Origin: Campylobacteraceae bacterium
Lineage (GTDB): Bacteria; Campylobacterota; Campylobacteria; Campylobacterales; Sulfurovaceae
Reading direction: 5' to 3'
NCBI GenBank assembly: GCA_027038275.1
Contig: JALVXC010000087.1
Location: forward strand, 1 to 42,503
DNA length: 42,503 nt
Shown: positions 2,777 through 29,892 of the stretch, piece after piece
Layout of the letters: each line of letters begins with the position of its first letter
How positions within the stretch are numbered: position 1 is the stretch's first letter
Notes under the pieces: model-generated
What the model was told of the DNA's origin: nothing
The model's input: the letters and a program-made list of their open reading frames with translations, nothing else
Databases searched by the model: none
Position numbers and translations under genes: made by a program

Positions 2777-3076
2777 ATGGAAACGATTATAGTTGTTGTA
2801 GGTATTGTTGTTGTATTTTGGATAGCAAAAAAAGTTTTTGGTTCTTCAGACAAAGTTTGGAAAGTGGCTAAAAAATATGGGGTTAAAAAGACAGATTCTA
2901 GTAGAGAAAATTGCAGTAGATGTAGATATGGAAATCATACAATCACAACAGTTGAAGGAAAAGGTTCTACAAATGGGGTTCACTGCTCTAAAAAAGATAT
3001 AGAAGTTACTGAAAATATGGTTTGTAGTGAGTTTAAAGGCTTAGAATCTCCTCAACATAGTTTATTTGGTAGCTAA
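2777..3076 (+). CDS. Membrane-anchored C4 cysteine-module protein
   Basis: A 99-residue protein with one N-terminal membrane helix (residues about 2-20) and then a soluble tail carrying four cysteines as C46-x2-C49-x20-C70-x12-C83-x2-F86. The same spacing pattern recurs in the next two genes, which makes a metal-binding (probably zinc) knuckle plausible. With few positive charges before the helix and a lysine-rich segment after it, the tail is predicted to face the cytoplasm. AAAGGA lies just before the ATG and the spacing to the upstream gene is 10 bp. I know no family name for it. A redox or Fe-S role for the cysteines cannot be excluded. Confidence 0.6.
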   Translation: METIIVVVGIVVVFWIAKKVFGSSDKVWKVAKKYGVKKTDSSRENCSRCRYGNHTITTVEGKGSTNGVHCSKKDIEVTENMVCSEFKGLESPQHSLFGS

Positions 3077-3099
3077 ATTTAATTTATAAAAGGAAAATT

Positions 3100-3678
3100 A
3101 TGAGTGACTTTAAAGATAGATGTGGTGGATGTGAGCATACAACTGGTTATGACCTTCCTTTTAAGGGAGCAAGAACTATTACTCAATGTGCTTTAGGTTA
3201 TAGAGTACCAATTTCAGAGGGGTGTTCAGAGTTTACACCTGATATTACTGCAAGTTGTGATAGATGTTTTTTTTATACAAAAAAGGAATCAGAAGGGAGA
3301 TATAAACCTCATTGTACAGTTCATAATATTACCTCTATAATGTCTAAAAATTTTCCAGGAGGTAGTGGATTTTGTCAAGAATTTTATCAAAGAAATTCTT
3401 ATGAAAATACAAATAAAGAGAAAAAAAGTGGTTGTTTTATAGCAACAGCTGTTTATAACTCTCCTACAGCTCCTAAGGTTATGATTTTAAGAGAGTTTAG
3501 AGACAATATTTTACTACAATCTAAATATGGTAAATCTTTTGTAAATCAATATTATAAATATTCGCCAAATTTTGCAGATTTTTTAAGAGGACATAAAATT
3601 TTAAAAAGTATTGTTCGATATATATTTATTGAACCACTTGTTTTTATAGTGAAACTATTTCAAAAGAAAAGAGCATAA
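3100..3678 (+). CDS. CFI-box C-terminal protein with two C4 modules
   Basis: A 192-residue protein in two parts. Residues 8-45 and 53-95 each hold the cysteine pattern also found in the flanking genes: C8-x2-C11-x18-C30-x11-C42-x2-F45, then C53-x2-C56-x15-C72-x19-C92-x2-F95. From residue 112 follows CFIATAVYNSPTAPKVMILR, the CFI-box C-terminal domain signature. That domain is typically found at the ends of otherwise unrelated bacterial proteins, with a conserved Cys and a following LRxFRD segment, and it is here followed by a hydrophobic helix (about 160-187). The function of the CFI-box is not established; a membrane-associated or processed tail is an inference. A good AAAGGAAAA ribosome-binding site precedes ATG 3100. 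Confidence 0.7.
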   Translation: MSDFKDRCGGCEHTTGYDLPFKGARTITQCALGYRVPISEGCSEFTPDITASCDRCFFYTKKESEGRYKPHCTVHNITSIMSKNFPGGSGFCQEFYQRNSYENTNKEKKSGCFIATAVYNSPTAPKVMILREFRDNILLQSKYGKSFVNQYYKYSPNFADFLRGHKILKSIVRYIFIEPLVFIVKLFQKKRA

Positions 3679-3730
3679 AAAGAGAGTTTTACTATTTACT
3701 AGAAAAATACTTTGTTTGAAAAGGGAATTT

Positions 3731-3907
3731 ATGAAATTCAAATTAAATAAAAATGAACTAGAGAATCACAATACGGATATATTATGTTTCACTTGCATAC
3801 ATCGAATGGCTCAATATACATCAGGAGAATTTGATTGTAGTCTCTATGGTCGTGTTAAAAATACGAAAATATGTGGTACTTATATTAAAAATAAAATTGC
3901 TTCATAA
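3731..3907 (+). CDS. Small C4 cysteine-module protein
   Basis: A 58-residue protein consisting almost only of the C4 module seen in the two preceding genes: C19-x2-C22-x13-C36-x11-C48-x2-Y51. I chose ATG 3731 because AAGGGA sits just upstream; a TTG at 3716 would lengthen it by five residues and overlap the ribosome-binding site. It lies 52 bp after the CFI-box gene and is the last gene before the transposase locus. Recognising the module is what makes this a credible gene despite its length. No function is known. Confidence 0.5.
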   Translation: MKFKLNKNELENHNTDILCFTCIHRMAQYTSGEFDCSLYGRVKNTKICGTYIKNKIAS

Positions 3908-3988
3908 TATTAACATGTGGTGTAAGAGCTTTAAATAATTCAGTATAGCAATAATTTTGAAGAAATTTTATAAATTTTTTCCAAAGGC

Positions 3989-4012
3989 AAAGGGGTCAGG
4001 TGAACGTAATCG
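3989..4012 (+). repeat. RAYT 5' terminal repeat (also at 4111-4134 and 4494-4517)
   Basis: The 24 bases AAAGGGGTCAGG plus TGAACGTAATCG occur identically at 3989, 4111 and 4494, each about 40 bases before an ATG with the same AAGGAG ribosome-binding site. The reverse complement closes the complete copy at 5327-5350. It is the presumed recognition end of the transposase. Confidence 0.85.
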
Positions 4013-4051
4013 TAAGTAATTTTCTGCTATACTTTCACCAAAGGAGACCCC

Positions 4052-4108
4052 ATGTCAAGAAAACCAAGAGTAGAAATAGCAGGATATTATCATATAGTCA
4101 ATAGGGGG
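4052..4108 (+). pseudogene. RAYT copy 1, N-terminal fragment
   Basis: Only about 18 codons of the transposase remain (MSRKPRVEIAGYYHIVNR) before the sequence jumps into the 5' end of copy 2. It differs from copies 2 and 3 by Ser for Pro at residue 2 and Val for Ile at residue 7, so it descends from a slightly diverged element. It cannot be functional. Confidence 0.75.
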
Positions 4109-4173
4109 GCAAAGGGGTCAGGTGAACGTAATCGAAAGCAATCTTCTGTTATACTTTCACCAAAGGAGACCCC

Positions 4174-4524
4174 ATGCCAAGAAAACCAAGAATAGAGATA
4201 GCAGGATATTATCATATAGTCAATAGAGGAGTAGAACAAAGAGTAATCTTTAAAGAAGATGAAGATTATAAAAAGTTTGAAGAGCTACTTTGTAGCTATG
4301 CACCAAGTTATGGAGTAACCATTCATAACTACTGTTTGATGAGTAATCACTACCACTTGCTAATAGAGATAGAAGATGGAAATCTCTCAAAATTTATGCG
4401 ACAAATCAATATGAATTATGCTATCTATTTTAACAAAAAATATAAACGTTCAGGACACCTTTGGCAAGGACGATTTAAATCATGGTATGGAGTAAAGGGG
4501 TCAGGTGAACGTAATCGTAAGTAA
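4174..4524 (+). pseudogene. RAYT copy 2, truncated after the HUH half
   Basis: This frame matches copy 3 for about 105 residues, including the HYH motif at 59-61. At 4489-4494 it is replaced by the 5' end of copy 3, and the frame ends in 11 unrelated codons. It keeps the HUH motif but lacks the catalytic tyrosine region and the C-terminal helix-turn-helix, so activity is not expected. It differs from copy 3 only in two short clusters of substitutions, at 4290-4300 and 4330-4360. Confidence 0.8.
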
Positions 4525-4556
4525 TTTTCTGCTATACTTTCACCAAAGGAGACCCC

Positions 4557-5324
4557 ATGCCAAGAAAACCAAGAATAGAGATAGCAGGATATTATCATAT
4601 AGTCAATAGAGGAGTAGAACAAAGAGTAATCTTTAAAGAAGATGAAGATTATAAAAAGTTTGAAGAGCTATTCTGTAGCTATGCACCAAGTTATGGAGTA
4701 ACCATTCATAACTACTGTTTAATGAGTAACCATTATCATCTATTAATAGAGATAGAAGATGGAAATCTCTCAAAATTTATGCGACAAATCAATATGAATT
4801 ATGCTATCTATTTTAACAAAAAATATAAACGTTCAGGACACCTTTGGCAAGGACGATTTAAATCATGGTATGTAACCGATGAAGCGTACCTCTATACACT
4901 TATACCCTACATAGAACAAAACCCACTTAAAGCAAAGATGGTAAAAAGAGTAGAGGAGTACCAATACTCAACAGCACACTACTTTTTAAGTGAAGAGAAA
5001 ATACCAACTTGTTTAAAAGACTCCTATATGGCACAAAATTATCAAAATGATAAAGAGGCAATAGAAGCATTTTTATATTCAAAAATAGATAGTTCAGTAC
5101 TTCAAAGACTAAAAAGAGGAGCAAGTTTAGTAGAAGCACCAAACATAGATAAAAGACCTAAAGAGGAAGATTTAAAAACTATTTTTGAAAATATTACAGA
5201 TATAAAAGAGAGAAATAGTAAAATAGTTCAAGCATATAAAGATGGTTTCTCTCAACACATGATGGCTAAAGTATTGGGGTTATCACAATCTACTGTTAGT
5301 GGGATTATTAAGAGGTATGGGTAG
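4557..5324 (+). CDS. REP-associated tyrosine transposase (RAYT, Y1/IS200-like)
   Basis: The complete 255-residue transposase of the array. It has the HUH single-strand endonuclease fold features: the N-terminal GYYHIVNRG strand, the metal-binding HYH at residues 59-61 (MSNHYHLLIE), the conserved GHLWQGRF at 94-101, and the likely nucleophile Tyr118 in YIEQNP. A C-terminal helix-turn-helix (MAKVLGLSQSTVSGIIKRYG) ends the protein. RAYTs nick and join single-stranded DNA at palindromic REP sequences and are usually domesticated. This one is flanked by inverted 24-base ends and intact, so it could still act on the two fragments in front of it. AAGGAG precedes ATG 4557. Confidence 0.9.
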   Translation: MPRKPRIEIAGYYHIVNRGVEQRVIFKEDEDYKKFEELFCSYAPSYGVTIHNYCLMSNHYHLLIEIEDGNLSKFMRQINMNYAIYFNKKYKRSGHLWQGRFKSWYVTDEAYLYTLIPYIEQNPLKAKMVKRVEEYQYSTAHYFLSEEKIPTCLKDSYMAQNYQNDKEAIEAFLYSKIDSSVLQRLKRGASLVEAPNIDKRPKEEDLKTIFENITDIKERNSKIVQAYKDGFSQHMMAKVLGLSQSTVSGIIKRYG

Positions 5325-5326
5325 AT

Positions 5327-5350
5327 GATTACGTTCACCTGACCCCCTTT
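5327..5350 (-). repeat. RAYT 3' terminal inverted repeat
   Basis: This is the reverse complement of the 24-base 5' repeat except for one extra G:C in the G run and the final base. It starts two bases after the transposase stop codon and marks the right end of the element. Confidence 0.85.
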
Positions 5351-5373
5351 TCTCCTTTTCTGCCCTTTTCTCA

Positions 5374-5511
5374 ACCTCCACTTTTACCATTTTTAATAAC
5401 CATAAAAATAGATAATTTAGATAATCTAGAGATTGAACGGCAGGGGTGTAGAGTTTTAAAAATAGATAATTTAGATAATCTAGAGATTGAACGGCAGGGG
5501 TGTAGAGTTTT
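5374..5511. repeat. Intergenic repeat block with exact 54-bp tandem duplication
   Basis: The 352-base gap between the transposase and the Rpn gene holds no open frame of note but several repeats. A 54-base unit is present twice without mismatch (5404-5457 and 5458-5511). Each unit contains GAGATTGAACGGCAGGGGTG, a motif whose complement recurs at 5570, 5637 and 6638. Bases 5374-5419 are also repeated with few changes at 5584-5631. Perfect identity of the tandem copies points to a recent duplication. Confidence 0.85.
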
Positions 5512-5569
5512 ATACTTTTTTAGCTAAAATTCCTAGAAAGGAACTCCCATCGAACCAAAAGAGAACCAC

Positions 5570-5659
5570 ACACCCCTGCCGTTTAATCTCCACTTTTACC
5601 ATTTTTAATAACTATAAAAATAGATAATTTAAAATTACACCCCTGAGGTCGAATCTCCA
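5570..5659. repeat. Two further copies of the intergenic repeat, opposite strand
   Basis: ACACCCCTGCCGTTTAATCT starts at 5570 and a diverged copy, ACACCCCTGAGGTCGAATCT, at 5637. Both are complements of the motif in the tandem block just upstream. The 5483-5504 and 5570-5591 copies form a long inverted repeat of about 22 bases with a loop of about 65. Confidence 0.75.
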
Positions 5660-5676
5660 CTTTTTAACTTACAAGA

Positions 5677-6570
5677 CTATAAATCCCTTAACTCCTCTAT
5701 CTCCTCAACACTAAGTCCTGTCGTTTTAGAAATAAACTCTATATCCATATTTGCCAATAGCAGATTTTTAGCAATCTCAATCTCTCTCTCTTTTTTACCT
5801 TTTTCTACTCCTCTTTTTTCTCCTTCTTCTATTCCTTTAAGTTTGGCTGTATATAAAAGAGAATTTTTATACATCTTATTCTCCTCTTTTCTCTTATAGA
5901 TAGCTCTTGCTTTATCATCTAGTTTCATAATGTCTAGCGTCTCTTTAGCTTCATTTAGTCCTTTTGCCTTAAAGTCGCTTTTTATCTCTTCATTTTTTAG
6001 AAAATATATCCACTCATCAAGGCTGTTTTTAGCAATATCATTAAACTGATTTACTCTTAAAATATAATATTCAGGATATATATCTGAAATAGTATCAATA
6101 CCAAAATCCTCTTGCTGTCTCTTTGATGGTCTTAAAATATCATCTTTTTTATGTAGTCCTCTAAACTCTGTCTTTCCATAATATACATAATCTTCACCTT
6201 GACCCAACGCAAAATAGACAATATTAACTGAATATACCTTTTTAATATTTTTATAACCACTATCGCCTTTTGAGATATATTCGGTAATTAGTTTAGATGA
6301 ACCATAAAGCATTCTTTGAAAATAGTCAATCTCACTACTATATTGAACTTCAATTAAAATAAGTTGCCCACTCTCGTTTTTAGCCAACAAATCAACTCTA
6401 TTAAATTTATCATCTTCATTTTCTTGATTTGCCTCACTCTCTAAAACCTCTTCTATCTTTACATCAAATTTTAGAAGTTCGGTTAAAAAGCCCTCTAAAA
6501 TAACAAAATTTGCTTTTTGTCTTAAAATTTTTTTCATAGCCCAATCAAAGCTTACTAATTTTCGTGACAT
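5677..6570 (-). CDS. Rpn family PD-(D/E)XK nuclease (putative transposase)
   Basis: A 297-residue member of the Rpn/PD-(D/E)XK nuclease-transposase family, which includes recombination-promoting nucleases related to transposase_31. The N-terminus (LVSFDWAMKKILRQKANFVI) is the family hallmark. The catalytic core is RVDLLAKN followed by LILIEVQ, giving the D...ExQ active site. The C-terminus has a charged helix and a short helical tail (EEIEELRDL). I chose the ATG at 6570 because it starts exactly at the conserved MSRKLVSFD and has AAAGAG upstream; the longer frame to 6618 adds 16 unrelated residues. Copies of one intergenic repeat in the same orientation lie on both sides (5637 and 6638), which suggests it arrived or moved as a unit. 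Confidence 0.85.
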   Translation of the reverse strand: MSRKLVSFDWAMKKILRQKANFVILEGFLTELLKFDVKIEEVLESEANQENEDDKFNRVDLLAKNESGQLILIEVQYSSEIDYFQRMLYGSSKLITEYISKGDSGYKNIKKVYSVNIVYFALGQGEDYVYYGKTEFRGLHKKDDILRPSKRQQEDFGIDTISDIYPEYYILRVNQFNDIAKNSLDEWIYFLKNEEIKSDFKAKGLNEAKETLDIMKLDDKARAIYKRKEENKMYKNSLLYTAKLKGIEEGEKRGVEKGKKEREIEIAKNLLLANMDIEFISKTTGLSVEEIEELRDL

Positions 6571-6637
6571 TTTAAACTCTTTTTTTGAGTCGATTATAAC
6601 ACAAACTATATTATCCACGGATAACTAAACTAAAGAT

Positions 6638-6740
6638 ACACCCCTGCCGTTCAATCTCCACTTTAAAAGGTCAGGTGTCAGACCCCAAATAGATAACTAA
6701 TCTTAAGCTAAGGGGTCAGACACTAAATAGATAACTAAAC
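6638..6740. repeat. Intergenic repeat copy plus REP-like remnants
   Basis: The roughly 315 bases between the Rpn gene and the toxin remnant hold no convincing gene. At 6638 is another copy of ACACCCCTGCCGTTCAATCT. It is followed by two REP-like pieces, AGGTCAGGTGTCAGACCCC (from about 6668) and AGGGGTCAGACAC (from about 6711), each followed by AAATAGATAACTAA. They resemble the ends of a RAYT family but differ from the 24-base ends at 3989-5350. The stretch 6745-6865 shows nothing I can identify. Confidence 0.6.
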
Positions 6741-8815: not shown

Positions 8816-9685
8816 TTAGATGAAAATCTCATCTAAAATTGTATTGACATAATCATTAGCCTTAAATCTTATGAGGTCATCAGGCTGTTCACCTGTTCCT
8901 ATAAAATAGATAGGCATTTTAAGCTCATGTGCAATAGATAAAACAGAACCACCTTTTGCTGTTCCGTCTAACTTAGTAATTATTATACCATCTATTCCTA
9001 TCATTTCGTTAAAGATTTTAGCTTGATTGATGCTAGAGCTACCTTGAGTACCGTCTAAAATGAGCATTTTTCGGTGTGGAGCTTCGGGCATTGCTTTATT
9101 TGCAATGCGAACCATCTTTTTAAGCTCTTCTGCTAGATTGGTCTGTGTGTGTAGTCTTCCTGCTGTATCTATAAGTACATGGTCAATATTTTTTGCTTTT
9201 GCAGAGGCAATGGTATCGAAAACAACAGCAGAGGGGTCATGACCTTGTCTAGTTGAGACAATAGGAACATCTAGTCTGTTTGCCCAACGTGTTAGTTGTT
9301 CTATTGCAGCTGCACGGAATGTATCGGCTGCACCTAAGAGTACTGTTTTGTCCTCTTTTTGAAGATGACGAGCTAATTTTGCAATAGTCGTTGTTTTTCC
9401 TGCACCATTTACACCAATAATCATCTCAACAAAAGGAGAGACTTTTAAATCATCTTTCCAATCTACTTTATATTGAAAGACAGATATTAGTGAATTGTAT
9501 GCTTCACCTCTAGTAATTTTTTTTGGTAAATATTGCAATAACTCTTCAATGAGTTCATAGTTTACATCAGCTTCTAAAAGAATCTCTTCAAACTCATCTT
9601 GAGTAATCTTTTTTTTCTTTTCAACAGCCACCTCTTTAATGGCATCATTGGTTTTTGTAAAAACTTTTTTTAATAAATTAAACAT
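8816..9685 (-). CDS. ftsY: Signal recognition particle receptor FtsY
   Basis: The SRP-receptor GTPase, which docks SRP-ribosome complexes at the inner membrane for co-translational insertion. It has 289 residues, the short form without a long acidic A domain. A helical N domain covers about 1-75. The NG GTPase domain has G1 GVNGAGKTTT at 91-100, the DTFRAAA motif at 121-127, G3 DTAGR at 173-177 and G4 TKLDGTAKGG at about 237-246. The LDGTQGSSS segment stands where most homologues have LDATTGQN; this looks like normal family variation. It is the middle gene of a minus-strand operon, 13 bp after the TlpA-like gene and 28 bp before the 357-residue membrane protein. Confidence 0.97.
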   Translation of the reverse strand: MFNLLKKVFTKTNDAIKEVAVEKKKKITQDEFEEILLEADVNYELIEELLQYLPKKITRGEAYNSLISVFQYKVDWKDDLKVSPFVEMIIGVNGAGKTTTIAKLARHLQKEDKTVLLGAADTFRAAAIEQLTRWANRLDVPIVSTRQGHDPSAVVFDTIASAKAKNIDHVLIDTAGRLHTQTNLAEELKKMVRIANKAMPEAPHRKMLILDGTQGSSSINQAKIFNEMIGIDGIIITKLDGTAKGGSVLSIAHELKMPIYFIGTGEQPDDLIRFKANDYVNTILDEIFI

Positions 9686-9698
9686 CTGTTTACCTTAG

Positions 9699-10322
9699 TT
9701 ATTTATTTTCTTGAAGAACTTGTTTAATGTCACTCTCTATCATCTCTTCAGGCATTAAACCTTCGTAGTGTGTAAAATATTTTCCATTAACAAAAAGAAT
9801 CATTAATGGCATAGGAAACTCTTTTGTAAGATTCAATTTAGGTGTAATAAAGTCTGCAAACTTAAGATTCTCTTTTTGCCTATTAGCAATAAAAAATCTT
9901 GCTTTTTGAGAAATTATAAATTTTTTTAACTTATCATCAGAGCAATCATCATGAACTAAAGCAGAGATAATAAAAAGGTTCTTTTTAAATTTTTTTTGCA
10001 AACTACTTAAATGAGGAATCTCTCCTCTGCAAGGTGGACACCATGTTGAAAAAAAAGCTATCATTACAATAGGTTGTCTTATATTAGAAAAGTGGTAAAT
10101 ATCATCTTTTATATGTAGTGTTGTTGAGTGATTTTCTAAGTCTTGAAAAGTAAATTTATACTCTTTAGAGATAATCTTTTTAGAAGTATCTACTTTTGGA
10201 GCTACTTTTTTAGAGATATTCTGTTCTGATAAATTACTATCTTTTTGAGTCGGTTTCATCTCTTCATTATTACAAGATATAAAGAGAGAAGTGATTAATA
10301 TTAAATATAATGTTTTTTTCAT
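9699..10322 (-). CDS. TlpA/ResA-like thioredoxin-fold lipoprotein
   Basis: A 207-residue periplasmic thiol-disulfide protein. The N-terminus is a lipoprotein signal with lipobox FISC (Cys17), followed by a Ser/Lys-rich linker to about residue 55. The thioredoxin-fold domain carries the active-site motif STWCPPCRGEIPHL with Cys95 and Cys98. Members of this group reduce apocytochrome c or other periplasmic thiols; the exact client is not shown here. It is the first gene of the minus-strand operon with ftsY and is divergent from the folate gene, with only about 65 bp between the two starts for both promoters. Campylobacter has, as I recall, the same lipoprotein between ftsY and the 5-FTHF cyclo-ligase. 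Confidence 0.88.
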   Translation of the reverse strand: MKKTLYLILITSLFISCNNEEMKPTQKDSNLSEQNISKKVAPKVDTSKKIISKEYKFTFQDLENHSTTLHIKDDIYHFSNIRQPIVMIAFFSTWCPPCRGEIPHLSSLQKKFKKNLFIISALVHDDCSDDKLKKFIISQKARFFIANRQKENLKFADFITPKLNLTKEFPMPLMILFVNGKYFTHYEGLMPEEMIESDIKQVLQENK

Positions 10323-23279: not shown

Positions 23280-23969
23280 ATGAGTAAAATTGCCATTATG
23301 GGTGCTATGCCTGAAGAGATTGCCCCTCTTTTAGAGAGAGTTGAAGATGTAAAAAAAGTAGATTATGCTAAAAATAGTTACTATGAAGCTACCTATAAGG
23401 GAAAAGAGTTGGTTATTGCTTACTCCAAGATAGGTAAAGTATTCTCCTCTTTAACTGCCTCTACACTTATAGAGAAGTTTAGTTGTTCAACACTACTTTT
23501 CTCTGGTGTAGCAGGGGCAATTAATCCTAAACTCAATATTGGTGATTTGATTATTGCTGATAAGTTGTGTCAACATGACCTAGATATCTCTATTTTTGGG
23601 CATGACTTTGGGTATGTACCAGAGGGTGCTAAGTTTGTAGAGTCAGATGAGAAGTTAAGAGAGATAGCAAAAGAGGTTGCCTCTAAAAATAACCTCTCTG
23701 TCATTGAGGGAACTATTGCAACAGGTGACCAATTTGTAGCTTCAACTGAGCGTAAAGAGTTTATATCTAAAAATTTTCAAGCTGATGCTTTAGAGATGGA
23801 GGGTGCAAGTGTTGCTGTGGTTTGTGATGCACTAGATGTTCCCTTCTTTATCTTAAGAGCTATCTCAGATACGGCAAATGATGATGCAGGGGTTGATTTT
23901 GATGAGTTTATGGTTAGCTCTGCAAAAATATCTGCAAATTTTATTTTAGATATAGTTGAGAGTATATAG
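23280..23969 (+). CDS. mtnN: 5'-methylthioadenosine/S-adenosylhomocysteine nucleosidase
   Basis: This enzyme hydrolyses the N-glycosidic bond of MTA and SAH. In Campylobacterota the same enzyme also cleaves 6-amino-6-deoxyfutalosine for menaquinone synthesis. The 229 residues include IAIMGAMPEEIAPLL at the start, LLFSGVAGAINPKLNIGDLI, IATGDQFVAS, LEMEGASVAVVC (catalytic Glu) and LRAISDTANDDAGVDFDEF with the catalytic Asp. MTA is also the by-product of aminopropyl transfer, which fits the polyamine-type genes 1.6 kb downstream. The TtcA-family gene follows after 9 bp. Confidence 0.94.
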   Translation: MSKIAIMGAMPEEIAPLLERVEDVKKVDYAKNSYYEATYKGKELVIAYSKIGKVFSSLTASTLIEKFSCSTLLFSGVAGAINPKLNIGDLIIADKLCQHDLDISIFGHDFGYVPEGAKFVESDEKLREIAKEVASKNNLSVIEGTIATGDQFVASTERKEFISKNFQADALEMEGASVAVVCDALDVPFFILRAISDTANDDAGVDFDEFMVSSAKISANFILDIVESI

Positions 23970-24776: not shown

Positions 24777-24846
24777 CCAATATTATATTCATTTGGAATC
24801 GGAGACTTTTCCAAAATTTTTGAAATTAATTTTGGGTAGGTACTTA
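24766..24846. other. Nested and alternative hairpins between the TtcA-family gene and the DUF350 gene
   Basis: The outer arms TAAGTACCT (24766-24774) and AGGTACTTA (24838-24846) pair perfectly. Inside, CCAAAATT (24811-24818) can pair with AATTTTGG (24828-24835), or, in a competing form, TTTGGAA (24792-24798) with TTCCAAA (24809-24815). The element overlaps the stop codon of the upstream gene and ends 40 bases before the next -10 box. It could be a 3'-end structure, an operator or a switch; no T-run follows. Confidence 0.4.
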
Positions 24847-24886
24847 GTTTAGTTGCTAACCAAGCCCTCCTAAATAAAATTAAAAG

Positions 24887-24892
24887 TATAAT
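24887..24892 (+). promoter_or_regulatory. -10 box of the DUF350-polyamine-DUF4178 operon
   Basis: TATAAT preceded by AAAG, 24 bases before ATG 24917, where AAGGAT is the ribosome-binding site. No further promoter was noticed until after 29892, so the six genes probably share it. Confidence 0.5.
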
Positions 24893-24916
24893 CCTGCAAA
24901 AATTTAAGGATTTTTT

Positions 24917-25129
24917 ATGGAAAAGTTTGATTTATCTGAAATGTTCTCAACACTTATATATGCAGGAGTTGGCATAGCTATTTTCTTTTTTGTCTTGGTG
25001 TTAATTGAGATATTAACAAAATACTCAGTCAACAAAAAGATTGCACAAGAGGGCAATGTAGCTTTGGCGATTGTTTTAGCTTCTATTATTATCGCTTTGG
25101 GTCTTATTATTTCAGCTTCAATACACTAG
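24917..25129 (+). CDS. DUF350 family membrane protein
   Basis: A 70-residue protein with two membrane helices (about 12-33 and 46-67) joined by a short loop, TKYSVNKKIAQEGNVALAIV. The loop motif, with its NxAxAI, and the following helix are characteristic of DUF350. It is a single-unit form; many homologues have two such units. It opens the operon. The next gene's ATG follows its stop codon without a gap, so expression is coupled. DUF350 proteins are known from stress-linked neighbourhoods such as that of YjfL, but their biochemical role is not established. Confidence 0.82.
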   Translation: MEKFDLSEMFSTLIYAGVGIAIFFFVLVLIEILTKYSVNKKIAQEGNVALAIVLASIIIALGLIISASIH

Positions 25130-26650
25130 ATGGAAGGTAAAACTACTCAAGCAAAAGAGATTGCTCTTCTTTTTGGAACATTTATTATTGCTATTTGTGG
25201 GCTGGTCTATGAGCTTTTAGAGGGGACGCTCTCCTCTTATCTTTTGGGGGATTCGGTCTATCACTTCTCTTTGGTGATTGGACTTTTTATGTCCTCTATG
25301 GGAATTGGCTCATGGCTCTCTAGGTTTTTTGAAGAGAATCTTGAAAAAGCATTTATTAGACTACAACTTATTATCGCTTTAGTGGGTGGATTTTCGGCAT
25401 TTATTCTCTTCTTTGCTTTTGCTTTTATAGAAAACTACAATGCCTTTTTGTATCTAATCACCATTTTACTTGGAAGCCTATTGGGGATTGAGATTCCACT
25501 AATAATCCGTATTTTAAAAGAGAGTTTCTCTTTAAAAAGCAATATCTCAAATGTCTTTACTTTAGACTATATTGGTGCGTTGTTTGCATCTTTGCTTTTT
25601 CCTATGGTCTTAGTGCCACAACTAGGACTTATGCAGACCTCATTTCTTTTTGGACTCTTAAATCTGTTTGTTGCCTCAATGAGTTGGTATATCTTTAGAG
25701 ATACTATCTCTAAGCGATATTTGCTCTATATCTCTTTGGTTTTTGTAGTTTTAATATCTGGTTTTTCCTACTCAGCCAAACTTACGACTATTATAGAGAA
25801 CAAACTCTATCGAAATAAGATTATCTACTCTGTGCAGACCCCATACCAAAAGATTGTTGTAACAGGCAATAGCCATAGAACTCAATTTTATATTAATGGA
25901 GCAATTCAGTTTGATACTATTGATGAATACCGATACCATGAATCTTTGGTTCACCCTGCTATGTTGGCTACACCTAGACATGAAAATATTTTGATTATAG
26001 GTGGTGGTGATGGAATGGCTTTAAGAGAGGTGTTAAGGTATGATGATGTAGAGCATGTAACTTTGGTTGACCTTGATAAAGCAATTACAACTCTCTTTAC
26101 AACACACCCTCTGTTGAGTAGATTAAATCATCACTCATATAGCGATAGAAGAGTAAAAGTAGTCAATCAAGATGCTTGGAAATATATTGAGAGTACTAAG
26201 AGTCTATATGATGTAATTATTGTTGATTTGCCTGACCCAAATAACATCTCACTAAGTCGTCTCTATTCACAGAGTTTTTATGAGTTGCTAAAGTCGCATC
26301 TCTCTAAAATGGGGGCTATGGTGACACAAGCTAGTTCACCTCTTTATACTCGTAAAGCCTATTGGTGTATTAAAAAGAGTATGGAGCATACGGGGCTTTA
26401 CATAAAACCCTATCATACTTATGTTCCAAGTTTTGGTGAGTGGGGGTTTGTTTTGGCTTCTCATTTTCCTGTTGATTTAAGCAGATTAAAACCAATGCAT
26501 AAGATGAAATATCTAAACCATGCAAGTTTAACTAGAATGCAACTCTTTGATGTCGATATGAGTGAAGTAGAGGTAAAAGCTAACAAGTTAAGTCAACATG
26601 CACTTATTGACTACTACGATAAAGGTTGGGTAGAGTGGTATGGAAAATAG
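25130..26650 (+). CDS. Membrane-embedded spermidine synthase-like aminopropyltransferase
   Basis: A 506-residue fusion of about seven membrane helices (10-215) to a cytosolic spermidine-synthase-type Rossmann domain (about 225-450). In the soluble part YRYHESLVHPAML, ILIIGGGDGMALREVLRYD, VTLVDLDKAI and IIVDLPDPNNISLSRLYS follow the SpeE order, including the GGGDG nucleotide loop and the DLPDP segment common in membrane-type members. The enzyme is expected to transfer an aminopropyl group from decarboxylated SAM, or a related group, to an amine near the membrane. No SpeD is present in the window. It starts right at the DUF350 stop and overlaps the decarboxylase gene by 11 bp. Confidence 0.88.
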   Translation: MEGKTTQAKEIALLFGTFIIAICGLVYELLEGTLSSYLLGDSVYHFSLVIGLFMSSMGIGSWLSRFFEENLEKAFIRLQLIIALVGGFSAFILFFAFAFIENYNAFLYLITILLGSLLGIEIPLIIRILKESFSLKSNISNVFTLDYIGALFASLLFPMVLVPQLGLMQTSFLFGLLNLFVASMSWYIFRDTISKRYLLYISLVFVVLISGFSYSAKLTTIIENKLYRNKIIYSVQTPYQKIVVTGNSHRTQFYINGAIQFDTIDEYRYHESLVHPAMLATPRHENILIIGGGDGMALREVLRYDDVEHVTLVDLDKAITTLFTTHPLLSRLNHHSYSDRRVKVVNQDAWKYIESTKSLYDVIIVDLPDPNNISLSRLYSQSFYELLKSHLSKMGAMVTQASSPLYTRKAYWCIKKSMEHTGLYIKPYHTYVPSFGEWGFVLASHFPVDLSRLKPMHKMKYLNHASLTRMQLFDVDMSEVEVKANKLSQHALIDYYDKGWVEWYGK

Positions 26651-27695
26651 AACTCCCTATTTTGAACTCAATCTTCAAGCTTTTAAGGGCAATCTTAAAC
26701 GTTTGGAGTATCTGCAACAAGAGGCAAAGGTTAAAATCTTACATACCCTAAAGAGTTTCAATGAACCAAAAGTGTTGCCTTTAATAGGTGAGCAACTCTT
26801 GGGTATGAGTGTTAGTAGTTTAAAGGAGTTAGAGTTAGCCAAAGAGGCAGAGGCAAAGCATATTCATCTCTATTCTCCTGCTTTTAAAGCAGATGAACTC
26901 TCTTTTATGCAAGAGCAGGTAGATACTATCTCATTTAACTCTCTTTCTCAATGGAGAAGATTCTCCTTTGTAACTAAAAGCTCTTTGGGGCTTAGAGTCA
27001 ATCCTAAACTCAATCTGCCCATTCCTAACTACTGTAATCCAAATGTAGAGTACTCTCGTTTGGGGGTTGATTATGTGGAGTTTTTAGAGCAATACAAAAA
27101 GAGTCCTAAAGAGTTTTTAGCTTTAGAGGGGTTGCATTTTCATGCTCTTTTTCAAAGCTCATTTCAAGGATTGTGGCTACTTTTAGAGCATATAGAGAGT
27201 AACTATCAAGAGCTTTTACCTCGACTAAAATGGTTAAACTTAGGAGGAGGACATAACTTTACAGATGACTCTTATGAGGTTAAAGAGTTTGTTAAGAGAG
27301 TTCAAGAGTTTCATAGCCGTTATGAGCATATTGAGCTTATCTTTGAACCTGGGGAGTCGGTTGTTAGCTCTTGTGGTGATTTTGTGACAACAGTTTTAGA
27401 TATTGTTGAGGTTGCAGGTGAAAAGATGGTTATTTTAGATACCTCAACAGAGACCCATCTGCTTGATGTTGCCATTGTCAATAAAAGACTCAAAGTTGAG
27501 GGTACAAGCACAGAGGCTACAGCTTATTTTTACACCTTAACAGGAAACTCTTGTCTGCAAGGAGACTGTATTGGAGAGTATTTCTTTCTTGAACCTTTAA
27601 AAGTTGGCTCTAGGGTTAGATTTAAAGATATGATTGGTTACACTATGGTTAAGATGACTGAGTTTAATGGAATGGAGAAGGCGAAGTTAATATGA
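26640..27695 (+). CDS. NspC-like PLP fold-type III decarboxylase
   Basis: A 351-residue alanine-racemase-fold decarboxylase closest, by motifs, to carboxynorspermidine/carboxyspermidine decarboxylase (NspC). The PLP lysine is Lys38 in ILHTLKSF. The phosphate-binding loop is LNLGGGHNFT, followed by LIFEPGESV and GNSCLQGDCIGEYFF with the conserved Cys and Asp. FHALFQSSFQGLWLLLEHIE fits the His that stacks on PLP. The expected reaction is removal of a carboxyl from a carboxylated polyamine. The usual NspC partner, carboxynorspermidine dehydrogenase, is not seen; instead it is coupled to the aminopropyltransferase by an 11-bp overlap. Its own stop overlaps the first DUF4178 gene (ATGA). Confidence 0.82.
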   Translation: MENRTPYFELNLQAFKGNLKRLEYLQQEAKVKILHTLKSFNEPKVLPLIGEQLLGMSVSSLKELELAKEAEAKHIHLYSPAFKADELSFMQEQVDTISFNSLSQWRRFSFVTKSSLGLRVNPKLNLPIPNYCNPNVEYSRLGVDYVEFLEQYKKSPKEFLALEGLHFHALFQSSFQGLWLLLEHIESNYQELLPRLKWLNLGGGHNFTDDSYEVKEFVKRVQEFHSRYEHIELIFEPGESVVSSCGDFVTTVLDIVEVAGEKMVILDTSTETHLLDVAIVNKRLKVEGTSTEATAYFYTLTGNSCLQGDCIGEYFFLEPLKVGSRVRFKDMIGYTMVKMTEFNGMEKAKLI

Positions 27696-28312
27696 ACAGA
27701 TTAAATTGTCCACAGTGTGGTGATGTTTTAAATATGAACATAAAGTATAGTAAACTAACACGTTGTAACTCTTGTAAAAGTACCATTTTTTTAGAAGATG
27801 ATGCACTAAAAAATTTAGGAAAGATGAACCTCTTAAGTGATGAACCCTCACCTCTAAAGCTACATCAGAAGTTTCGTTATGGTAAGCAGGAGTATCTACC
27901 CATAGGAAAGATTCGTTACGCTTATGAGCTTGGTTTTTGGGAGGAGTGGTTTGTTCTTGATGAAAAACAGAAGCCATATTGGATAAGTGTCGATGAGGGA
28001 AATCTGATTTTAGAGAAGAGCTTTGAGCTACCAAAAAGTGAAATTCAACGACTTATAAAAGAGAGCAGACTTAGTCGTACAGTGACTATTCAAGGTAAAA
28101 GATACCGTGTAACAGAGAGAGATGAGGGAGTCTGCCAAGGGTTTGATGGAGAGCTTCCACGAGCCATTAGGGTTGGTACAAAACTAAACTATCTTCATCT
28201 TTCGTCATTAGAGGAGAACTTACATATTACTCTTGAAGAGGAAGATGGGGAGTATATGGCTTATATTGGTAGTTGGTTAGACATCTATGAGATGGAGTTA
28301 AACAATGGCTAG
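27692..28312 (+). CDS. Zinc-ribbon DUF4178 protein, short form
   Basis: A 206-residue soluble protein. A zinc ribbon lies at the N-terminus (C6-P-Q-C9 and C25-N-S-C28). The DUF4178 domain follows (about 50-200), with YGKQEYLPIGKIRYAY, WEEWFVLDEKQKPYWISVD and a repeated second unit around GKRYRVTERDEGVCQGFDGE. DUF4178 is a beta-rich domain that often sits near SpeE-like and DUF350 genes; its role is unknown, and binding of a ligand or membrane partner is an inference. It overlaps its neighbours by 4 and 8 bp. Confidence 0.8.
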   Translation: MNRLNCPQCGDVLNMNIKYSKLTRCNSCKSTIFLEDDALKNLGKMNLLSDEPSPLKLHQKFRYGKQEYLPIGKIRYAYELGFWEEWFVLDEKQKPYWISVDEGNLILEKSFELPKSEIQRLIKESRLSRTVTIQGKRYRVTERDEGVCQGFDGELPRAIRVGTKLNYLHLSSLEENLHITLEEEDGEYMAYIGSWLDIYEMELNNG

Positions 28313-29711
28313 TCTAAAATCTATTCGGTGTAAATACTGCTCTGCACCAATGCACTTTTACCATGAGAGTCGGCAGATTGAGACGATTACCTGTGAATAT
28401 TGTAACCAAACTCACTCTGTTAAAGAGAACTTTAAAACTCTCTATCGTTATCAAAAAAGTATGAATGGTGTTCGGCGTATTCTTCTTGGAACGGTAGGAA
28501 AGATTAAAAATATAGAGTTTACAATTATTGGTTATGTCATCTATACTAATGGTAAAGCAGAGAGTTTAAATGGGTTAAACTCAAGTGAGTGGTGGATAGA
28601 GTATCAGCTCTACTCTAAAACACATGGTTATGCCTATTTAACCTATGAAGATGGAAGTTACTACTTCTATCATCGTGTTTATGACTTACCTAAACCTCTA
28701 ATGAATCATGCTAAAGAGTTAGACACTATCTATTTTAGAGATAACTCCTTTACTGTAGAGGAGTCTTACAATGCTTATGCCTATTTTGTTGCAGGTACAC
28801 TAACATGGAAAGCAAAAGTAGCAGATAGCTCTTATTGTGTTGATGCCAAGAGTAGTTCAGGTTGGTTTAGTCGAACTAACAATATTCTCTCTTATGAGAG
28901 AAGCAAAACAGAAGAGGAGTATTTTTTAGGTGAACCTATTGAGTCTCTTGATGAGTCATTTCTTAATGGTATAACTACTCTTAAACAACAAAAAAAGAGT
29001 ACAAAAGGTACAAATAGAGTTAAAAAAGAGTCTATGAGTAGAGACTCTAAAAGGCAGTACCTCCTATCTCTTATTAGTCTAATTGCTTTTTTGGTCTCAT
29101 TTGTTGCATTAATACTACTTTTTCAAACAGAAGAGTATAAGATTTTTCAGCAAGATTTTAAGACAACTAAAAAAGAGAGTAATGCAACATTTGAGCTTAA
29201 CAATCTTAATGTAAAACATACTATTCAACTAAAAGCAAATATACTTCTTGGAGAAAAGGTTCATAAAGAGTTAACTATTAGAGAGGCGAACTCTAGCTAT
29301 AACACCTTAGAAAAAGATATTGATATGAGTTCTAAAAATCCTACTAAAACTATCTCTTTTGAGCCTTCAATATGGGGAAAAAAATATCTCTTAACTCTAA
29401 AAGATAAAAATAGTACAGCCAATACAACACTAAAGCTTACCATGACTCAACCTCTGCTTAAACGATATTTTGTTGTGTTGTTAATTGTCAGTATAATAGG
29501 AATTTTCTTAGGTTATCTATTAAAAGATGGAAAAGAGGCTTGGATTACTCTATTGATTGCAACTATACTTGTCTATATTGTTGCTATGTATCCTTCATCA
29601 TTCCTCTTTTTAGGTTTAGTGATGATAGGATATTTTGCTTCAAAATTAGGAGAAAATGGTCTTGTTGGTGCATTCTTTTTCTATGTTTTGATAATTAATA
29701 TACTACTATAA
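28305..29711 (+). CDS. Zinc-ribbon DUF4178 membrane protein, long form
   Basis: A 468-residue protein that begins like its neighbour: a zinc ribbon (C9-K-Y-C12 and C30-E-Y-C33) and a DUF4178 region (about 55-215, with NSSEWWIEYQLYSKTHGYAY and YFVAGTLTWKAKVADSSY). It then has a membrane helix at about 252-272, a region predicted to lie outside the cytoplasm and rich in beta strands (about 275-382), and further membrane helices (388-465). It thus connects the DUF4178 domain to the membrane. It starts 8 bp inside the previous gene and is followed after 10 bp by a small gene. Confidence 0.8.
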   Translation: MASLKSIRCKYCSAPMHFYHESRQIETITCEYCNQTHSVKENFKTLYRYQKSMNGVRRILLGTVGKIKNIEFTIIGYVIYTNGKAESLNGLNSSEWWIEYQLYSKTHGYAYLTYEDGSYYFYHRVYDLPKPLMNHAKELDTIYFRDNSFTVEESYNAYAYFVAGTLTWKAKVADSSYCVDAKSSSGWFSRTNNILSYERSKTEEEYFLGEPIESLDESFLNGITTLKQQKKSTKGTNRVKKESMSRDSKRQYLLSLISLIAFLVSFVALILLFQTEEYKIFQQDFKTTKKESNATFELNNLNVKHTIQLKANILLGEKVHKELTIREANSSYNTLEKDIDMSSKNPTKTISFEPSIWGKKYLLTLKDKNSTANTTLKLTMTQPLLKRYFVVLLIVSIIGIFLGYLLKDGKEAWITLLIATILVYIVAMYPSSFLFLGLVMIGYFASKLGENGLVGAFFFYVLIINILL

Positions 29712-29721
29712 AAGGAAAGAA

Positions 29722-29892
29722 ATGGCACGGTTTTATATAATTTTCTTTACACTTTTGACACTCTTTTCTCTATATGCTACTCTCTATGGCTCTTTTCTTG
29801 ATAAGGTCTCTTATGGAAAGATGCATCATAGTAGTAGAAGTAGTAGTAGCTCTCACTCTTATGGTAATGGTGGGTATAGTTTTGGAAAATAA
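29722..29892 (+). CDS. 56-residue membrane peptide with Ser/His/Gly-rich tail
   Basis: A short gene with AAAGGAAAG just before ATG 29722, 10 bp after the long DUF4178 gene. Residues 2-22 form one hydrophobic helix (or signal peptide) and residues about 35-56 are almost all Ser, His, Gly and Tyr (HHSSRSSSSSHSYGNGGYSF). The ribosome-binding site, operon spacing and strong compositional bias support it as real. The His-rich tail could bind metal ions or polyanions; that is inference. It closes the operon. Confidence 0.65.
   Translation: MARFYIIFFTLLTLFSLYATLYGSFLDKVSYGKMHHSSRSSSSSHSYGNGGYSFGK

Follow-up and report, generated by a model that had tools for sequence, protein, structure and literature searches.

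The window is a stretch of 42,503 nucleotides that makes up the whole of its contig, in a genome of 2.54 Mb (97% complete) whose closest relatives are Sulfurovum-type Campylobacterota, a sulfur-oxidizing group. Six genes are packed tightly on its forward strand (Table 1): the DUF350 gene abuts mSpeE with a 0-bp gap, mSpeE overlaps NspC2 by 11 bp, NspC2 overlaps DUF4178a by 4 bp, DUF4178a overlaps DUF4178b by 8 bp, and a 10-bp gap separates DUF4178b from the gene for a 56-aa peptide. All of the open reading frames and their families were recovered, which bears out the six-gene operon proposed in the first-pass annotation. The accompanying idea of one shared promoter fits this spacing, but the best sigma-70-like site upstream of DUF350 (24853-24880, a 9/12 consensus match) does not stand above chance, with 26 such sites found in the region against 19.1 ± 4.7 expected. 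A Shine-Dalgarno-like AAGGA precedes the DUF350 start.

Table 1. Genes and upstream region of the mSpeE operon, in window coordinates
Feature	Position	Strand	Basis
DUF350 small membrane protein, 70 aa	24917..25129	+	PF03994 45.4 bits, cut-off 26
mSpeE, membrane domain + spermidine-synthase-fold domain	25130..26650	+	PF01564/NF002956 642.6 bits
NspC2, NspC-like PLP decarboxylase	26640..27695	+	PF02784+PF00278/TIGR01047 307.5 bits
DUF4178a, CxxC...CxxC zinc ribbon + beta-rich DUF4178 domain	27692..28312	+	PF13785 64.1 bits
DUF4178b, zinc ribbon + DUF4178 domain + C-terminal membrane region	28305..29711	+	PF13785 43.5 bits; sequence
Small membrane/Ser-Gly-rich peptide, 56 aa	29722..29892	+	translation; weak homologues
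Upstream intergenic region, presumed promoter	24777..24916	+	consensus match only

Gene products of the operon

mSpeE joins an N-terminal membrane domain of about 9 predicted helices (residues 2-226) to a synthase-fold domain (residues about 227-506), and its match to the curated NF002956 (PRK03612) model is full length (residues 5-503) and exceeds the cut-off of 472 bits. The AlphaFold model is of moderate quality (pLDDT 73, pTM 0.53); the top-scoring PDB matches, which cover the synthase domain only, are all aminopropyltransferases. The catalytic residues GGGDG and D366-x-x-D369 are invariant in our alignment, and family, fold and these residues together predict that mSpeE is an aminopropyltransferase. 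Related membrane-spermidine synthase fusions reportedly do not make spermidine (Li et al. 2019, Biochem J 476:2579).

NspC2 falls below the equivalog cut-off of TIGR01047 (307.5 versus 409.05 bits), and the same genome encodes, on another contig, a canonical NspC that scores 540 bits against this model and is 40% identical to NspC2. In the tree, NspC2 lies outside the canonical NspC as a single clade opposite it (branch support 98/93, 97% of bootstraps), within which L105 and L106 branch deep, nearest canonical NspC. The active-site residues are intact: Lys38, which binds PLP, His168, GGG202-204, Glu236, Asp276, Cys305, Asp309 and Tyr334 are all retained. In the alignment, Asp276 falls on D308 of the 3n29 chain; assuming a tag offset of 36, this would be D272 of C. 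jejuni CASDC, a residue reported as carboxyspermidine-binding (PMC7857480). Other positions have changed; in C. jejuni numbering, Tyr136 is Cys and His341 is Gly, Ala, Ser or Pro in 21/21 NspC2 rows, and the NspC2 rows displayed have lost the Glu of the CE[Q/E] loop, which is Asp in one of them. We read this pattern of residues as a proximal-cation binding site that has been kept beside a tail pocket that has been altered. NspC2 is thus like canonical NspC (C. jejuni 3N29; PMC7857480, PMC11999265) in fold family, PLP lysine, Cys loop and specificity-helix Asp, and unlike it in its separate clade, its score under the equivalog cut-off, its altered conserved residues and its linkage to mSpeE.

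Purifying selection acts on the three core genes, with dN/dS values against the nearest relatives of 0.16-0.18 for DUF350, about 0.11 for mSpeE and 0.15-0.18 for NspC2. The four zinc-ribbon cysteines of DUF4178a are invariant across 20 homologues, and its predicted model is confident and beta-rich (pLDDT 89.9). A search with this model against the PDB returned no match with E<0.001, and the predicted fold is possibly an undescribed one. The sixth product, previously called a His-rich peptide, has only three His among its 56 residues and is rich in Ser and Gly instead; it has weak but recurrent homologues (21-28 bits) at other mSpeE loci, where they lie between DUF4178b and DUF350. Upstream of the operon, two genes away, is an MTA/SAH-nucleosidase-like gene (PF01048) at 23280-23969. 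Aminopropyl transfer yields MTA as its by-product, but this gene is absent beside mSpeE in relatives' loci, and we regard its position here as coincidence.

The combination of mSpeE, DUF350 and DUF4178 is already known from a PSP-linked operon consisting of CesT/Tir, PspA, 7TM-SpeE, DUF350 and DUF4178 (PMC11237479). That operon shares 7TM-SpeE, DUF350 and DUF4178 with the one described here but has PspA and no described decarboxylase, whereas the host operon has NspC2 and no PspA. PspA (PF04012) is absent from the entire host genome in a search whose positive controls were detected, and the earlier suggestion of a stress or PSP link finds no support there. Clusters of a membrane (MFS/7TM)-spermidine synthase fusion with DUF350 and SpeD were reportedly described by Li et al. 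2019. They and the host operon both pair DUF350 with a membrane SpeE of one type, whose acceptor would be something other than putrescine, but they have SpeD where the host has an NspC-superfamily PLP enzyme.

Distribution of SpeD and NspC2 among mSpeE genomes

The first-pass annotation had raised the prospect of a SpeD encoded elsewhere in the genome, but a genome-wide search (PF02675) found it neither in the host nor in any of 33 genus relatives, with positive controls detected in both cases. The class 2 SAM decarboxylase family PF01536 also gave no matches, in a search without a working positive control. The host does encode one CASDH candidate (Sacchrp_dh_C family) along with two NspCs, and one CASDH candidate with two NspCs is the general pattern across genomes. 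Since a canonical NspC and a CASDH are present, ordinary aspartate-semialdehyde-based spermidine synthesis has genes of its own, and with that NspC separate and the CASDH single, a role for NspC2 solely in this normal route, which had been the other reservation about the PLP enzyme, is unlikely.

Outside Campylobacterota, mSpeE loci occur in Thiotrichaceae, other gammaproteobacteria, Rhodobacteraceae and a few other phyla. Their gene order is mostly DUF4178a-DUF4178b-(small peptide)-DUF350-mSpeE, in some cases with SpeD adjoining mSpeE. A genome-level Pfam search (PF02675) detected SpeD in 34/36 tested mSpeE genomes outside Campylobacterota, the exceptions being G468 and G473, versus 1/14 of those tested inside (G445; Fisher 4e-9, with genomes counted without phylogenetic correction). 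An iterated SpeD profile was dropped from this tally after producing shadow-frame matches at L128, L132 and L133. In the outside genomes, matches to the NspC family are either canonical NspC or as weak as those that related decarboxylases typically give.

Inside the phylum, where we counted distinct genomes with duplicates removed, 32 carry mSpeE. NspC2 shares the locus in 22 of these, 8 are without it, and 2 are undecidable (L104, with an NspC2 remnant, and L123, at a contig end), so that NspC2 is found at the mSpeE locus in 22/30 decidable genomes, usually overlapping mSpeE. In a panel of 60 relatives, NspC2 is present in 14/17 genomes with mSpeE versus 0/43 without (Fisher 4e-11, related genomes counted separately); like the other survey statistics, this one counts kindred genomes, many of which are incomplete MAGs. 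SpeD and NspC2 are therefore complementary at the level of whole genomes, as expected if, in line with the first-pass annotation, the PLP enzyme occupies SpeD's place. The eight genomes without NspC2 (G002, G006, G017, G060, G177, L100, L102 and L107) are also without SpeD where this was tested, which indicates that NspC2 is not always needed.

mSpeE and NspC2 form the steadiest pair across Campylobacterota loci, and their overlap is conserved in several genera. Some loci have no DUF350 (L079, L080), and the two DUF4178 genes, downstream in the host operon, usually lie upstream in those of its relatives. Inserted genes part mSpeE from NspC2 in two genomes, with both reading frames still open: a DNA methyltransferase gene with one other gene, apparently a restriction-modification pair, at L042 in G025 (3567-5746), and a putative DNA-binding protein of the AlbA/Schlafen type at L035 in G013 (2833-4287). 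A caspase-like peptidase gene follows mSpeE in NspC2's usual place at L044 in G017 (5806-6648), and at L104 mSpeE is followed by a degenerate stretch (9518-9817) that weakly resembles NspC2 (27 bits), suggesting decay of NspC2 there. Among Campylobacterota with mSpeE, a Desulfurellales MAG (L101 in G445) alone has SpeD as well as NspC2, a co-occurrence that may be genuine or may stem from faulty binning.

Campylobacterota mSpeE sequences form one clade (98/93) whose neighbors are Thiotrichaceae mSpeE from SpeD-bearing genomes, and L105 and L106 branch deep in this tree as they do in that of NspC2. The simplest history would have NspC2 gained once, when mSpeE came into a phylum without SpeD, and lost a few times since.

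A probable decarboxylase partner for mSpeE and the possible orders of steps

Gene association alone is no proof, and this limits how firmly a shared pathway can be claimed. We infer nonetheless that mSpeE and NspC2 act in one pathway, and its donor, order of steps and acceptor are proposed on the same footing. NspC2 is probably a dedicated decarboxylase partner of mSpeE-dependent aminopropylation, performing for mSpeE the decarboxylation that pyruvoyl-dependent SpeD performs in other mSpeE bacteria. Together, the two enzymes would place a SAM-derived aminopropyl group on an amine acceptor, probably a membrane-associated one, and methylthioadenosine would be released upon transfer. The carboxyl removed by NspC2 would belong to a 2-amino-4-X-butyrate in which X is cationic, where X would be the sulfonium of SAM if decarboxylation comes first and yields dcSAM, or the amine of a carboxyaminopropylated acceptor if transfer comes first. 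We lean, if only just, toward the further proposition that an NspC-superfamily PLP enzyme has displaced SpeD in membrane aminopropylation, either as a SAM decarboxylase or as a decarboxylase of a carboxyaminopropyl adduct that mSpeE makes directly from SAM. To our knowledge, neither a PLP-dependent SAM decarboxylase in the NspC superfamily nor carboxyaminopropyl transfer from SAM in the spermidine-synthase family is an established activity, and a limited literature search turned up no account in which a relative of NspC replaces SpeD.

The nearest worked example, by analogy, is MccD/MccE, a SAM alkyltransferase and a PLP decarboxylase that make the aminopropyl group of microcin C, with transfer preceding decarboxylation in vitro, although that order is not beyond doubt (PMC10491745). 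The logic would be the same for mSpeE and NspC2, a pairing seen in the genomes: an alkyltransferase and a PLP decarboxylase of the alanine-racemase fold that operate without SpeD. MccE groups with DAP decarboxylases and not with NspC (PMC7857480), MccD is not a membrane SpeE, and the MccD/MccE acceptor is a phosphate.

The donor pocket of mSpeE bears on the order of steps. We aligned 18 NspC2-linked sequences with 8 unlinked ones from Campylobacterota and 55 from outside the phylum; H270, D294, D366, D369 and Y379 are invariant, disregarding gaps in the unlinked set, and A297 is nearly so. H270, D294 and D366 are the same in all three groups, just four columns of the alignment separate the groups and none of these is a pocket residue, and the NspC2-linked pocket has gained no basic residue relative to the outside sequences. 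H270, D294 and D366 are the equivalents of residues that bind the amine of dcSAM and of an Asp whose presumed role is to repel the carboxylate of SAM, D294 corresponding to the latter (PMC3725402). Because the pocket is invariant between SpeD-linked and NspC2-linked mSpeE, an unchanged donor is favored, but spermidine synthase of T. cruzi has been crystallised with SAM (3bwc), so this argument is not decisive.

The two orders share between them the confidence that we place in a decarboxylase partnership, and we slightly prefer decarboxylation first, if tentatively. NspC2 would then be a PLP-dependent SAM decarboxylase supplying dcSAM to an mSpeE that is an unchanged aminopropyltransferase, as the constant donor pocket would suggest. 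The absence of SpeD, and of PF01536 matches in the search that had no working control, is consistent with this, as is the replacement of canonical residues in NspC2, and the reverse of the in vitro order is possible even for MccE (PMC10491745). On the other hand, our limited literature search found no PLP-dependent SAM decarboxylase, and if NspC2 were the source of dcSAM, then mSpeE in genomes with neither SpeD nor NspC2 would have no donor.

Those same genomes would be explained if mSpeE instead moved the 3-amino-3-carboxypropyl group of SAM to the acceptor and NspC2 then decarboxylated the adduct, since a canonical NspC could complete the reaction where NspC2 is missing. The end group of such an adduct is that of carboxyspermidine, which NspC enzymes already recognize, and NspC2 retains the carboxyspermidine-binding Asp while other canonical residues differ. 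The direct transfer from SAM that the first-pass annotation envisaged also gains plausibility from the in vitro order of MccD/MccE (PMC10491745) and from the SAM-bound structure (3bwc), but it fits poorly with an mSpeE pocket that matches the SpeD-linked group at H270, D294, D366 and, nearly, A297, that keeps the presumed carboxylate-repelling Asp (PMC3725402) and that has acquired no basic residue, and we consider this order possible but rather doubtful. If either order holds, there would be another way of making aminopropyl groups besides SpeD and the pathway from aspartate semialdehyde. The mSpeE/DUF350/DUF4178 cluster is widespread, and a SpeD-less lineage that has it amounts to a natural experiment on whether decarboxylation can precede transfer; the pocket of NspC2 may in turn report on the acceptor of mSpeE.

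NspC2 could also act on the acceptor or polyamine side. It would convert a carboxy-polyamine derived from aspartate semialdehyde into a (nor)spermidine-type amine, which mSpeE would then modify or export, with the aminopropyl donor coming from elsewhere. Its membership in the NspC superfamily and its retained catalytic set would suit such a role, and the CASDH of the genome could provide the substrate. A canonical NspC is already there, however, with only one CASDH candidate, NspC2 differs at several residues conserved among canonical NspC, and mSpeE would be left without a donor, all of which make this role unlikely. Finally, that NspC2 is an unrelated duplicate carried passively in the operon, as the lineages without it and the degenerate copy beside mSpeE in L104 might suggest, is highly improbable and already disfavored by the phyletic pattern, given an overlap conserved over several genera, a single clade, 0/43 occurrences in genomes without mSpeE, and purifying selection.
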